From Clostridia bacterium (GTDB lineage Bacteria; Bacillota; Clostridia; Oscillospirales; CAG-272): a DNA stretch of 15,321 nucleotides. The first letter of the stretch is position 1. Each line of letters begins with the position of its first letter. Of the stretch, positions 374-15,321 are shown one piece after another. The stretch is from contig JAFQNM010000228.1 in assembly GCA_017395885.1 (NCBI GenBank), positions 1-15,321 on the forward strand. The letters run 5' to 3'. A program made the translations under genes and the position numbers. The notes beneath the pieces are model-generated. The model ran no database searches. It was given only the letters and a program-made list of their open reading frames with translations, and was not told the DNA's origin.

Positions 374-1507
374 TTGAAATGTAACAGTATAGCGTTCTCC
401 AATTTCCGCAACGTTGAATCTGAGAAATGCAATTTTTCTGACGGTGTCAACGTCCTTTGGGGCAAGAACGCACAGGGAAAATCGAATATACTTGAGGGAA
501 TCTATTTCTTCGCTCGCGGCCGCTCCTTTCGAGGCGCCAAGGAAAAGGAATTGATCCGTTTTGGAGAGAAGGAGGCCGCCCTCTCACTTGAATTTTTAAA
601 GGAGGGAGACCGATATCCCGTCTCCCTCTCCGCCGGCATCCCTCAGGACGGCAGAAAGACCCTTTACCGCAACGGTGCAAAGCTCTCCGGCTCCAAGGAG
701 ATGATGGGCTCATTCAGGGCAGTTCTTTTCTGCCCCGCTCATCTGACGCTTGTGAGCGGCGGACCCGCCCTTCGCAGAAGCTTTCTGGATATTGCCCTCT
801 CCCAGCTTTATCCCGCCTATCTGGACAGCCTCTCTCGCTACAACCGTGCCCACCTGCAGCGCAATGCCCTTATAAAAAAGGCTCAAAGCACAGGAAAAAA
901 TACCTACGACAGCATCATATGGGAGACCTATGCCGAGCAGATGGCCACCTTCGGTGCAGATATTTTTGCCCGCAGGCTGGAGTATATGAACGAGCTCTCC
1001 GCCTCGGTGGAGGAGCTATTCCTACGGATGACGGAGGGCAGAGAAAAGCCCTCTCTCTCCTATCGCTCCTCAGCTCTCGGAGAGGATGCCTCAGAAATAA
1101 CCCGGGCGGCAAAAACAAAGCTCTATGACGCTCTCCTCTCAAACCTTGACCGTGAGATAATTATAGGCTCAAGCCTTTACGGCGTTCACAAGGACGATAT
1201 TTCCGTCCGCCTGAACGGAAAGGAGGCAAAGGTATTTGCCTCTCAGGGCCAGCAAAGGAGCCTTGCCCTTTCAATGAAGCTTGCAGAGGGCGAAATGTCT
1301 AAGAAAATAAGCGGTGAATACCCTGTTTTTCTTCTTGACGACGTGCTCTCGGAGCTTGACGGCGACCGCCGTGCATTTATTCTCAGAAGCCTTTCCGACC
1401 GTCAGCTTATCGTTACCTCCTGCGAGCCTGAAATATTCCGCTCAATGGACTCATCCTCCCGCCTTATTCACGTGAGGGACGGCAAAATTGCCGAGGTGGA
1501 CGGATGA
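374..1507 (+). CDS. recF: DNA replication and repair protein RecF
   Basis: RecF is an SMC-like ATPase that works with RecO and RecR to load RecA onto single-stranded gaps. The 377-residue product has the expected length and motifs. Walker A is GKNAQGKS at residues 30-37. The ABC-type signature SQGQQRS is at 290-296. Walker B with the D-loop, VFLLDDVLSELD, is at 318-329, and a late VTSCEPE motif at 347-353 follows it. The start is TTG, with GGAG nine bases upstream. This start gives MKCNSIAFSNFRN, which matches the usual RecF N-terminus. The stop overlaps the recX start as ATGA, so the two are translationally coupled. In most Firmicutes recF follows dnaN; here it lies about 13 kb before dnaA, with no dnaN beside it. 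The assignment is secure. Confidence 0.97.
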   Translation: MKCNSIAFSNFRNVESEKCNFSDGVNVLWGKNAQGKSNILEGIYFFARGRSFRGAKEKELIRFGEKEAALSLEFLKEGDRYPVSLSAGIPQDGRKTLYRNGAKLSGSKEMMGSFRAVLFCPAHLTLVSGGPALRRSFLDIALSQLYPAYLDSLSRYNRAHLQRNALIKKAQSTGKNTYDSIIWETYAEQMATFGADIFARRLEYMNELSASVEELFLRMTEGREKPSLSYRSSALGEDASEITRAAKTKLYDALLSNLDREIIIGSSLYGVHKDDISVRLNGKEAKVFASQGQQRSLALSMKLAEGEMSKKISGEYPVFLLDDVLSELDGDRRAFILRSLSDRQLIVTSCEPEIFRSMDSSSRLIHVRDGKIAEVDG

Positions 1508-12091: not shown

Positions 12092-12131
12092 TCCCCTCCC
12101 CGAAAAATCGGGAAAAATATTATAATTTACA

Positions 12132-12151
12132 TTCAACAAATCTGTTGAAAA
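12132..12151. promoter_or_regulatory. DnaA-box pair overlapping the dnaA promoter region
   Basis: TTCAACA (12132-12138) and TGTTGAAAA (12143-12151) form an inverted pair with four bases between. The right half is an exact reverse-strand TTTTCAACA, the box type that fills the origin downstream. It ends four bases before the -35 element, so DnaA binding here could repress dnaA, as known for other bacteria. Confidence 0.65.
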
Positions 12152-12154
12152 CTC

Positions 12155-12200
12155 TTGTAAATGCAGGCAGATTGTGCTATAATTTTGAGTGGATTATAAT
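12155..12200 (+). promoter_or_regulatory. dnaA promoter, possibly two overlapping
   Basis: P1 has TTGTAA at 12155-12160 and a perfect TATAAT at 12178-12183 with a 17-bp spacer. A second set, TTGTGC at 12172-12177 and TATAAT at 12195-12200, also has 17 bp between its parts, but its -35 is weak. Either would give a leader of about 120-145 bases before the dnaA start chosen here. That leader (12201-12329) is A/T-rich and shows no known riboswitch. Confidence 0.75.
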
Positions 12201-12329
12201 ATATATAAGGAAATAAAAATTTATTGCTCTTTTCGGCATTTTTTTGTATTTCCGCGAATAAATTGATAGATACAATGCATTGAAAGGCTGTTTAAATACA
12301 TGGACGGATCAACACCCAAGGAGCTGACT

Positions 12330-13697
12330 ATGTTCTTCGAGTCCATTTATGCAATGATGAAGGAAAAATCCAGTATGTCCGAAACGGCATTCGATCTCTG
12401 GTTTAACGATTTTCATCTGCTTTCCATAAATGACGAAAAGGTAGTTCTGGCCACCCCACATAATTTTAAAAGAAAAACTATTGTTGAAAGATATTTTTCC
12501 CTCGTTGAGGAGAGCGTTTTCGATGCTCTGGACTACAAGCCTAAGGTAGAGATCATTTGCGACGGTATCGTTGAGCTTCAAAGCTTCATCCCCACCACCG
12601 GAAAGGTCACCCTTTCTAAGGGAAGATACGGCACCGCAAGCGAGGAGGAAACTGACGAGGAGGATATGGTCTCCTACGGTCTCAACGATGAGTACACCTT
12701 TGAGAACTTCGTTGTCGGCTCATCAAACCAGCACGCTCACGCCTGCTCGGTTGCCGTTGCCAACGACCCCAGCGGTGAGATTGACTACAATCCCCTCTTT
12801 ATCCACGGCCCCAGCGGCCTGGGAAAGACCCACCTTATGTACGCTATCGCAAACGAGGTCCACAAAAACGATCCCTCAAAGATCATTATCTGCGTTAAGA
12901 GCGAGGAGTTTCTTAACGAAATGATCGACTGTCTCTCAAAAAAGAATATGAAAAAGTTCCGTGAGAAGTACAGAAGAGCAGATATGCTGCTTATTGACGA
13001 CGTTCAGTTTATTGCAGGCAAGCAGTCTATTCAGGAGGAATTTTTCCACACCTTCAATACCCTATACGATGCAAAAAAGCAGATAGTTCTCACCTCTGAC
13101 CGCCCACCAAAGGAAATGTACACTCTTGAGGAGCGTATCAGAACGAGATTTTCTCAGGGTATAATAGTGGACGTTCAGCCTCCCGAATATGAGCTCCGTC
13201 TGGCAATTCTGAAAAAGAAGGCCGATAAGGGCAACATCAATATTCCAAATGATGTTATTATTTTCCTCGCAGAAAGGCTTAACTCCAATATCCGTGAGAT
13301 AGAGGGCGCCCTCAAGAAGATCGGTGCAGTTTCTCTCATTTCCGGAAAGCCCGTTACCCTTGAAATGGTAAAGAGCTCGATCCCCGATTATTTCCGTGAA
13401 AATAAGCCGGTGGCGGAAACGGTCAACACCATCCTTGAGGTAACTGCAAGAAAATATGACGTTTCTGTTGAGGCCATCCTCGGAAAAAGCAGAACAAAGG
13501 TCATAAAAACTGCTCGTAACGTTTCTATGTACGTTATCAAGAAGGTGCTTGACCTTTCTCTCGGAGATATCGGTAAAATGATGGACCGTGACCATGCCAC
13601 GGTGCACTCAAACATCAAGACCGTTGAGGCTGAAATGAAAACGGACGATAAGCTTAATAACGATATTTTCGAAATAATGACGGAGATAAAAAGCTGA
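12330..13697 (+). CDS. dnaA: Chromosomal replication initiator DnaA
   Basis: DnaA is the AAA+ initiator that binds oriC and melts it. I chose the ATG at 12330 (455 residues) because AAGGAG lies six bases before it; an in-frame ATG at 12300 would add ten residues but has only a poor site. Domain I covers about 1-80, and domain II is a short acidic linker. The AAA+ core has Walker A GPSGLGKT at 160-167, Walker B LLIDDVQF at 220-227, an arginine-finger region ending R273 in RTRF, and sensor 2 R322. Domain IV is altered: the usual GGRDHTTV is MDRDHATV, one residue shorter, with Ala at 423 where DNA-contacting Thr is usual, and the usual PRQ is ARN at 395-397. The minor-groove Arg (R388) is kept. 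The gene is intact. Confidence 0.97.
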   Translation: MFFESIYAMMKEKSSMSETAFDLWFNDFHLLSINDEKVVLATPHNFKRKTIVERYFSLVEESVFDALDYKPKVEIICDGIVELQSFIPTTGKVTLSKGRYGTASEEETDEEDMVSYGLNDEYTFENFVVGSSNQHAHACSVAVANDPSGEIDYNPLFIHGPSGLGKTHLMYAIANEVHKNDPSKIIICVKSEEFLNEMIDCLSKKNMKKFREKYRRADMLLIDDVQFIAGKQSIQEEFFHTFNTLYDAKKQIVLTSDRPPKEMYTLEERIRTRFSQGIIVDVQPPEYELRLAILKKKADKGNINIPNDVIIFLAERLNSNIREIEGALKKIGAVSLISGKPVTLEMVKSSIPDYFRENKPVAETVNTILEVTARKYDVSVEAILGKSRTKVIKTARNVSMYVIKKVLDLSLGDIGKMMDRDHATVHSNIKTVEAEMKTDDKLNNDIFEIMTEIKS

Positions 13698-14062
13698 TTT
13701 CAACAGCCGTTTTTCAATTATCAACACAACTGAGTTTCCCTTTGAAAAGGCTGTGAAATTATTGTTGAAAAAGAAGATATTTCCTTAATTATAAGGGAGT
13801 TGAGGTTTCGAAAAGGTTTTCAACAGCTTGTTGAAAACTCTAATATTTTCTTTTAATTTTAACTTTTCAACAGCAGCCTCGAATGTTGAAAAATCGGGCC
13901 TTTTCGAAAATGAAATTTTTTTTCGAAGAATCTGAAATTTTTAAGTCCCAAAGAGCAGAATTTTCAACCGGAGCAAACCGGGATTCAACCTGAAAAATTG
14001 AAAACAATTTCATTATTTCCCCTGATCCTAAAGGCCTCCCGGAGATTTCAACAGTTTCAACC
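13697..14062. promoter_or_regulatory. oriC DnaA-box cluster with variant consensus TTWTCAACA
   Basis: The dnaA-dnaN gap holds many copies of TTWTCAACA. Exact forward matches are at 13718-13726 (TTATCAACA), 13817-13825 and 13864-13872. Exact reverse matches (TGTTGAAAA) are at 13763-13771, 13829-13837 and 13884-13892. One-mismatch copies are at 13697-13705, 13961-13969 and 14045-14053, and a weaker one is at 14054-14062. The classical TTATCCACA does not occur in the gap. Position, number and orientation show an origin. That these are DnaA sites is inferred from their closeness to the known consensus and from the dnaA neighbour. Confidence 0.85.
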
Positions 14063-14066
14063 GCCT

Positions 14067-14081
14067 CTACAACTACTACTG
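14067..14081 (+). promoter_or_regulatory. DnaA-trio-like element of the origin unwinding system
   Basis: The top strand reads CTA CAA CTA CTA CTG, so the lower strand carries repeated 3'-GAT-5' triplets, the form described for DnaA-trios in Bacillus subtilis. It follows two box-like repeats (14045-14062) and a short GC-rich piece (14063-14066) and precedes an AT-rich tract. This is the known order of box, GC-rich spacer, trios, unwinding region. Confidence 0.7.
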
Positions 14082-14113
14082 TTTTATTTATATTATTATT
14101 ATTATTTATTTCA
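14082..14113. other. AT-rich DNA unwinding element
   Basis: About 30 bases are almost pure A/T, with a run of five ATT triplets and no internal GC pair. It lies next to the trio-like element and is the most easily melted part of the gap, so it is the likely start of strand opening. Confidence 0.7.
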
Positions 14114-14200: not shown

Positions 14201-15321
14201 ATGAAAGTTGTATTTGACAGAGATAAGCTTCTTGCATCTCTCGGCCCTGCGGCCGCAATAGCTCCCGGTAAAAAAACCATTGCAAGCGTTGAGGGTATCC
14301 TTTTTGAGTGCCCCGGCGAGGAGCCCGGAACCTGCCGCCTCACAGCATACGATATGGAGAAGGGTATGCGTACATTTGTTGAGGCTAAGTCTATGACAGA
14401 CGGCAGCTTTATTATCAACAGCCAGAATATTCTCCAGATCGTCAGAAGCATGCCCTCCGGAGATATAACTATAGATATAGACGATAAGAACCGTGCAAAG
14501 ATCACCGGCGGCGGCGGATTTTTCGAGATAGGCTCCATTCCCGGAGAGAGCTATCCCAGCCTTCCCCTCCTCTCAGGTGACAGAAACTATACTATTCCCC
14601 AGTATATTTTCAGAAGCCTTATCTCTAAAACTGCCTTCGCTATCGACCAGAATGCTCAGAAGCCTATTTTCAACGGCGTTTATTTCTCCGTTGAGGAGGG
14701 CAAGCTGAAGTGCGTTGGCTGCGACGGTAACAGACTGGGCTTTGCTGAATACGAGATAGGTGACGATGCTCCCGATGCATCCTTCATCGTTCCCGGCAAG
14801 ATCCTTATGGAGCTTATGAAGATGATCCACGATACGGAGGATGATATCACCATCTCCCTTGCAAGAAAGCACTGTATCTTCAGAGTTGGCGATTATACAT
14901 ATTTTTCAAGACTTATTGACGGCGAGTACCTTAACTATAAGAGGATCATTCCCGAGGAGTTTGAAAGGTGCGCCTATATCAATACTGATATGATGCTCGG
15001 TGCAGTAGAAAGAGCCTCTATCGTAACTGAGGATAAGCTTGGCGGAAGCACCTCAAAGACGTATATCAAGCTTGAGTTTGAGGAAAAGGTGCTGAAGATC
15101 TCCTCCGCTTCCACAGGCGGAAGCGTTTATGAGGAGATACCCATTGCCATGACAGGAGAAAATCTTGTGATCGCCTTTAAGTGCCGCTTCCTTCTTGACG
15201 CTTTAAAGGCCTCTGAGAGCTGCTCAACGGTCAAATTCAATATGAACGGACCTCTTATGGGTATATGCATTGAAAACGGCGAGAGCGGCGAGGGAGACGA
15301 AAAGGATCCCGTTAATTACAA
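14201..15321 (+). CDS. dnaN: DNA polymerase III sliding clamp, beta subunit (3' end cut by window)
   Basis: The beta clamp encircles DNA and holds polymerase III and many partner proteins. The reading frame is open from the ATG to the window end, giving 373 codons without a stop. The N-terminus MKVVFDRDKLLASLGPAAAIAP, broken here only by the strand turn, and PIFNGVYFSVEEGKLKCVG near 162-180 are typical of clamp domains 1 and 2. IPGESYPSLP near 121-130 also fits the family. Family length is about 365-385, so probably only the last 10-15 residues, including the C-terminal strand next to the partner-binding pocket, are missing. AAGGAAAGGAAAG upstream (14177-14189) supplies the ribosome-binding site. 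There is no separate promoter that I can support; it may be co-transcribed with dnaA. Confidence 0.95.
   Translation, partial: MKVVFDRDKLLASLGPAAAIAPGKKTIASVEGILFECPGEEPGTCRLTAYDMEKGMRTFVEAKSMTDGSFIINSQNILQIVRSMPSGDITIDIDDKNRAKITGGGGFFEIGSIPGESYPSLPLLSGDRNYTIPQYIFRSLISKTAFAIDQNAQKPIFNGVYFSVEEGKLKCVGCDGNRLGFAEYEIGDDAPDASFIVPGKILMELMKMIHDTEDDITISLARKHCIFRVGDYTYFSRLIDGEYLNYKRIIPEEFERCAYINTDMMLGAVERASIVTEDKLGGSTSKTYIKLEFEEKVLKISSASTGGSVYEEIPIAMTGENLVIAFKCRFLLDALKASESCSTVKFNMNGPLMGICIENGESGEGDEKDPVNY

Follow-up and report, generated by a model that had tools for sequence, protein, structure and literature searches.

A predicted replication origin with A at position 6 of its DnaA boxes, from a clostridial genus with two box states

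Replication origins, like DnaA itself, are essential and as a rule well conserved, which raises the question of how a signal present in many copies can change along with its reader. For the Mollicutes, the DnaA box consensus is given as TTWTC(C/A)ACA (Cordova 2002, as cited in PMC3322544), and for the Epsilonproteobacteria, a C-to-A change at position 6 is called tolerated (PMC5043019). According to PMC4674748, domain IV of Cyanothece DnaA bound a pair of oligonucleotide boxes including TTATCAACA, more weakly than a TTTTCCACA pair, the two pairs differing in spacing too. As quoted in PMC7561715, an oriC has at least three DnaA boxes with a mean spacing below 100 bp. The basal unwinding system, as set out in PMC8287927, consists of a box or tandem boxes and then, after at most 16 bp, at least three trios with a middle A.

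We compared these systems with the dnaA-dnaN locus of a Clostridia bacterium (GTDB CAG-272; assembly GCA_017395885.1, contig JAFQNM010000228.1). The whole 15,321-nucleotide stretch analyzed is called the window; it is contig C139 of a 1.68-Mb genome in 303 contigs that is 72% complete. A preliminary description of this DNA had proposed that its origin uses a variant DnaA box, TTWTCAACA, with A at position 6.

Genes and predicted boxes of the dnaA-dnaN region

The predicted dnaA product matched PF00308 (E 1.1e-66), PF08299 (E 9.4e-20), and PF11638 (E 1.2e-5). The first two scored above their cutoffs, so that both the AAA+ domain and the C-terminal DnaA helix-turn-helix domain by which a DnaA is recognized are present. 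The features of the region are listed in Table 1. A putative recF-like ORF, named from the look of its translation, lies upstream of dnaA at window positions 374-1507; the usual place of recF is after dnaN.

Table 1. Annotated and predicted features of the window around the dnaA-dnaN gap
Feature	Position	Strand	Basis
Near-box CATTCAACA, faces the 12143 box	12130-12138		near-match
DnaA box TTTTCAACA (predicted), upstream of dnaA	12143..12151	-	exact match
Sigma-70-like promoter for dnaA, TTGTAA-17-TATAAT, TG before second hexamer	12155..12183	+	consensus match only
dnaA, 465 aa, DnaA_N, AAA+, and C-terminal HTH domains	12300..13697	+	Pfam, PDB sequence match 8btg
Near-box ATTTCAACA, overlaps final base of dnaA stop codon	13697..13705	+	near-match
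DnaA box TTATCAACA (predicted)	13718..13726	+	exact match; slot holds a box word in 11/11 aligned genus origins, letters vary
DnaA box TTTTCAACA (predicted)	13763..13771	-	exact match
DnaA box TTTTCAACA (predicted), left arm of inverted pair	13817..13825	+	exact match
DnaA box TTTTCAACA (predicted), right arm of inverted pair	13829..13837	-	exact match
DnaA box TTTTCAACA (predicted)	13864..13872	+	exact match
DnaA box TTTTCAACA (predicted)	13884..13892	-	exact match
Near-box TTTTCAACC	13961..13969	+	near-match and slot alignment
Box-like word ATTTCAACA, first of tandem two, adjoins trio	14045..14053	+	sequence and alignment
Box-like word GTTTCAACC, second of tandem two	14054..14062	+	sequence and alignment
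DnaA-trio-like repeat, 3'-GAT GTT GAT GAT GAC-5'	14067..14081	-	sequence; motif per PMC8287927
AT-only tract	14082..14111	.	sequence
dnaN, truncated by window end	14201..15321	+	Pfam PF00712, PF02767, PF02768
Exact TTWTCAACA inside dnaN, absent from the preliminary description	14412	+	exact match

An exact motif count of the gap found six copies of TTWTCAACA and none of TTWTCCACA. The six copies amount to about 12 per kb (6 in 0.5 kb) against a mean of 0.03 copies in dinucleotide shuffles, none of 1,000 of which reached six. The whole window held eight copies against 0.23 expected, a number reached in 0 of 200 shuffles. No exact TTWTNCACA was present in the gap, all six copies deviating at position 6; the two in the window (3940 and 13042) both lie within ORFs outside the gap and are no excess, since 36 of 200 shuffles reached two. 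These counts bear out the preliminary description, which had reported the six gap copies and the missing classical box. The further copy that it placed by the dnaA promoter is the minus-strand one at 12143, which directly precedes the promoter-like site. The eighth copy, in dnaN, may be due to chance.

The preliminary description would be contradicted if the variant were equally common in all AT-rich intergenic DNA of this genome. We sampled 40 of the 303 contigs, chosen by contig number (244 kb of the 1.68 Mb). The sample contained 19 copies of TTWTCAACA, 16 in ORFs and 3 in the 30 kb outside ORFs, and none in its 6.2 kb of AT-rich intergenic blocks (GC ≤0.36). In this sample, therefore, the word is not a general property of such DNA, given the density in the gap.

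If TTWTCAACA counts as a box, the six copies within 175 bp agree with the published spacing rule for oriC. The two tandem words are followed by a spacer of 4 nt (14063-14066) and by the trios GAT, GTT, GAT, GAT, and GAC (14067-14081), the arrangement of the basal unwinding system. The second trio, GTT, has no middle A, and the strict run of three begins at 14073, 10 bp past the second tandem word. Judged by this layout, DnaA domain IV would bind the TTWTCAACA boxes and DnaA would load onto the trio strand, starting at the tandem words. The AT-only tract would open and is likely the DNA unwound first.

The usual place for DnaA autoregulation is a box just upstream of the dnaA promoter. We found no clear counterpart of the 12143 box in all relatives: 5 of the 11 compared had a T[AT]TC-N-AC word upstream of dnaA, with two of the stretches as short as about 90 bp. 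One genome of the C clade described below, G003, has a TTTCAACA word there. The back-to-back boxes at 13815-13839 make up a hairpin of 11 pairs, with T-rich DNA after it, and might double as a dnaA terminator. An Rfam search of the window gave no match.

Box states in the genus and the family

The genus set comprised 17 genomes, 11 of which gave a dnaA-dnaN gap, the other 6 having no usable dnaA locus. Counting boxes in the gaps of relatives, as the preliminary description had suggested, separated seven origins with A at position 6 from four with C. Among T[AT]TC-N-AC words of the seven A-clade gaps, position 6 was A in 50 and C in 2, with no G or T, and both C words belong to G008; in the four C-clade gaps it was C in 23 of 23. 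TTWTCAACA was in excess in six A-clade gaps (0 of 1,000 shuffles each). The seventh, G011, has a single TTWTCAACA, a count reached in 51 of 1,000 shuffles. This origin is a poor fit, with degraded words on the trio side and TTTTCAAAA as the majority of its box words.

Alignment of the 11 gaps showed that many A-type and C-type boxes share slots, among them the first box, those at window positions 13829, 13864, and 13961, and the tandem words by the trio; not every slot is filled in each A-clade origin. At 13829, all four C-clade origins carry TTTTCCACA and six of the seven A-clade origins carry TTTTCAACA. At 13864, TTTTCCACA is again present in all four C-clade origins, and TTTTCAACA in three of seven A-clade origins. 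The 13961 slot holds TTTTCCACA in three C-clade origins and ATTTCCACA in the fourth. The inverted pair at 13817 and 13829 is present in 3 of the 11 origins (the window's, G015, and G008).

In a tree built from DnaN and from DnaA with domain IV left out, the genomes with A boxes and those with C boxes formed sister groups (support of 94/91 for the A group and 100/99 for the C group), and therefore one switch of box state suffices for the genus. The order of the two states is not fixed by the tree, because near relatives of the genus have mixed boxes with C in excess, and a single switch means that the genus alone cannot show the cause. In this genus, an essential signal appears to have been rewritten in a coordinated way.

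Genome-wide, TTWTCAACA outnumbered TTWTCCACA in seven of nine A-clade genomes (the exceptions being G005, 79 to 80, and G011, 74 to 86), and the reverse was true in all seven C-clade genomes. The counts for G012, for which no tree placement was possible, were 30 to 70. We set these counts aside as evidence, because most sampled copies lie in ORFs, where codon use can cause such a skew, and a reversed-pattern control does not remove this explanation. We also dropped TTWTCAAAA, which genome-wide counts showed to be common everywhere.

A dnaD-like gene (Pfam DnaB_2) was found in 13 of the 17 genus genomes, with no match in the window's own genome. About 120-190 bp upstream of it lies a DnaA-box triad conserved across the genus (L260-L272), made of two boxes in direct orientation, spaced 12 bp apart, and a third word in inverted orientation. 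Five of the 13 genomes had no origin in hand (G001, G002, and G009 of the C clade; G007 and G013 of the A clade), and we assigned their clade from protein trees of neighboring genes, independently of the boxes. The direct boxes are TTTTCCACA twice in six of six C-clade genomes and TTTTCAACA twice in four of seven A-clade genomes; the remaining three have TTTTCAACA and TTTTCAACT (G007), TTTTCCACA twice (G005), and TTTTCCAAA and TTTTCAAAA (G011). The third word reads TTTTCCACA in six of seven A-clade genomes and TTTCCCACA in six of six C-clade genomes. The triad suggests that DnaA may control helicase-loading genes.

In G000 and G015 (L248:457-562 and L249:1494-1610), another group of four DnaA-box words lies in the intergenic DNA that separates an aminotransferase gene from a gene of unknown family. 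It consists of three TTTTCAACA and one TTTTCCACA in identical order and could be a titration or regulatory site. Its counterpart has two words in G007 and two in G005; the full 1,450-bp upstream stretch held none of the words in A-clade G010, G011, G013, and G014 or in C-clade G006, G009, and G016. The presence of both TTTTCCACA and TTTTCAACA at these loci speaks for a single protein that reads either form, and the letter of the box may set its affinity grade.

We extended the comparison to the family, where 353 of 395 genomes searched had a match and the best 154 family loci of the match list were examined. At least three boxes were present at 118 of 152 loci, the set used for correlations and classes; the residue scan below used 112 of 130 usable loci with at least two. 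Of the 118, 14 were mainly CA, 54 mainly CC, and 50 mixed. At 136 His434 loci, TTWTCCAC was seen 432 times against 11.2 expected and TTWTCAAC 213 times against 21.0. Gaps belonging to a His434 or Tyr434 DnaA (129 in all) contained 348 TTWTCCACA, 178 TTWTCAACA, and 8 TTWTCTACA. On a FastTree tree of the family, A-majority changed 24 times over 116 rows, or 7 times under a stricter label (59 of 152 rows). Of 79 named loci examined from the genome collection, which may or may not belong to the family, 29 had at least three boxes, and 3 of these were mainly CA (L039, L045, and L060). To judge from these words, position 6 is a flexible C/A position across the family.

We therefore favor, as the likely explanation, that the gap is oriC, that TTWTCAACA is the DnaA box of the window's clade, and that its DnaA accepts C or A, the origin boxes being nearly all fixed on A. 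At position 6, DnaA of the family would accept either C or A and, in rare cases, T. In the window's clade, A would have become fixed at nearly every origin box, perhaps alongside a small shift in DnaA preference, and C would have been kept at a few regulatory boxes.

DnaA domain IV and the alternative explanations

The base-contacting positions of DnaA are 399, 423, 432-435, 438, and 439 (PMC5043019), and none of these eight showed a fixed difference between the A and C clades. In part of the A clade such positions have changed: P423G and S435A occur in three of seven genomes, the window's subclade, and H434Y (G011) and H438Y (G005) each in a single genome. Eight domain IV positions do differ in a fixed way between the clades: 398, 404 (K/R), 415 (K/R), 429 (M/L), 443, 449, 452, and 453. 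These eight, the two base-contacting changes of the window's subclade, and origins that are almost purely A6 would all fit a stricter form of co-evolution, in which the recognition surface of A-clade DnaA changed so as to favor A6 and no longer read C6, with every box following suit. We consider this unlikely. The third word at the dnaD-like promoter is still TTTTCCACA in nearly all A-clade genomes, as is one of the four boxes in the G000 and G015 cluster, and a co-evolved pair of reader and site would have a base-contacting residue fixed together with the box change, of which there is none. The TTTTCCACA words at fixed places in A-box genomes argue that A-type DnaA probably still reads C.

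A residue scan for position 6 gave low raw p-values at 426, 429, and 431, from many tests on related rows. We then counted independent pairs, as means over 200 pairings of 19 pairs, with results covering residues 426, 429, 431, and 404. A went with the residue in 1.5 pairs and against it in 1.0 for 429M, 2.7 and 0.3 for 426G, 3.2 and 0.8 for 431N, and 1.5 and 0.3 for 404K. None of the four had a median p below 0.05, which also counts against strict co-evolution, and we do not retain 426, 429, and 431 as readers of position 6.

The preliminary description had suggested that the site and its reader co-evolved. The site half holds, in that the boxes changed in concert across matching slots and also, for most of the genomes, upstream of the dnaD-like gene. 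The reader half finds no support at the base-contacting residues, none of which is fixed differently between the clades, and a matched change of the reader is unproven.

A clearer link between reader and site appears at position 8. It was mostly non-C at 10 of 14 Tyr434 family loci versus 6 of 117 His434 loci; the tendency was noted in the family f1 loci L009, L158, L215, L220, L233, L119, L126, L145, L185, and L191. The box form with Tyr434 is TTTTCAAA in genera g1 and g38 and TTTTCCAT in g47. In g47, TTWTCCAT was seen 23 times against 0.6 expected with Tyr434 and 2 times against 0.6 with His434, and in g38, where 8 of 8 sampled loci have Tyr434, TTWTCAAA was seen 25 times against 3.1. Exceptions exist: L016 (g5) has Tyr434 yet C8 in most words, and L142, L158, and L161 (g38) are mixed, retaining several words with C8. 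Outside the family, four loci have Tyr434 and one to three words apiece, and C8 predominates in three of them. His and Tyr interchanged four times on the tree, and by the independent-pairs mean, position 8 followed in 2.2 of the 4, went the opposite way in 0.1, and was equal in 1.7; four changes are too few for significance in a sign test. His434Tyr thus tends, in these sequences, to go with loss of C at position 8, with exceptions. We put forward only tentatively, as somewhat less than an even chance, a wider reading in which the box code of the family evolves fast, its position 6 alternates between C and A from clade to clade, CA origin and CC regulatory grades coexist, and His434Tyr has turned C at position 8 into A or T in two or more separate lineages.

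Another alternative is that AT-biased mutation turned C6 to A at a position that hardly matters. Over the 118 family loci, A-share rises as gap GC (rho -0.45) and dnaA GC3 (rho -0.36) fall, and because of the correlation with low gap GC, AT drift contributes to the family pattern. Within genera, with g1 left out, the link persisted for gap GC (rho -0.31, p 0.005) and was lost for GC3 (rho -0.17, p 0.13). Mean dnaA GC3 is also lower in the A clade (0.32-0.58) than in the C clade (0.41-0.70). However, these ranges overlap, with A-type G000 and G015 at 0.55 and 0.58 and C-type G016 and G003 at 0.41 and 0.48. A change of C to T is absent, with 0 T and 0 G among the 75 core words of the genus, and C5 and C8 of the same boxes stay. 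Low gap GC went with A in 5.8 and against it in 1.9 of 19 pairs (median p 0.29). Base composition explains the box state of the window's genus poorly, and we give this alternative little credence. That the repeats serve as transcription terminators or bind a protein other than DnaA is hardly believable, since, even though the inverted pair at 13815-13839 scores as a terminator-like hairpin and window positions 13698-13860 fold better than shuffles (z -3.95), most copies lie outside such hairpins, the hairpin pair is confined to three origins, the tandem words adjoin trio-like repeats, and many slots match TTTTCCACA in sister species.

If a tolerant DnaA is the right explanation, A-type domain IV should bind the CA box TTTTCAACA and the CC box TTTTCCACA and not the CT box TTTTCTACA. 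A genus with both box states at matching sites, together with the repeated His434Tyr change in the family, supplies ready-made pairs for direct experiments. Genomes of this kind would probably be under-scored by origin finders that rely on TTATCCACA.

Comparison with known systems

The closest layout is that of DnaA-boxes 6 and 7 and the trios of Bacillus subtilis (PMC8287927), which likewise has tandem words, a short spacer, GAT trios, and an AT-rich tract beside dnaA and dnaN; the window's box letters are TTTCAAC instead of the usual CCAC core. By alignment, Thermotoga maritima DnaA, like the window's, has one residue missing before the recognition helix relative to B. subtilis, but its box is a 12-mer (PMC7561715) and the box here a 9-mer.

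For position 6 itself, the Mollicutes resemble the window's clade in having C or A there and boxes that flank dnaA. Theirs is a mixed consensus over species, whereas here a near-pure A clade stands beside a pure C sister clade. The Epsilonproteobacteria, with a TTCAC core (PMC5043019), have class-specific boxes beside changes in helix 5 of domain IV and are said to tolerate A at position 6, as here; their hallmark is T at position 5 and binding was shown by footprints, and the change here is at position 6 and known from comparison. The linear-chromosome origin of Cyanothece has one predicted box TTATCAACA, within the oligonucleotide and the origin that domain IV bound (PMC4674748). That is one odd box, the main origin having TTTTCCACA, whereas nearly all origin boxes are variant here.

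The contrast with the known consensus drawn in the preliminary description is correct in that position 6 differs and was too sharp in that C or A at this position is already published. Our searches of the open-licence literature turned up no clade-wide, near-complete switch inside a single genus whose sister clade has the other state at corresponding sites. The kind of variant box is thus already known from these systems, and what appears to be new, judged from the aligned origins, is a near-complete switch within one genus at matched slots.
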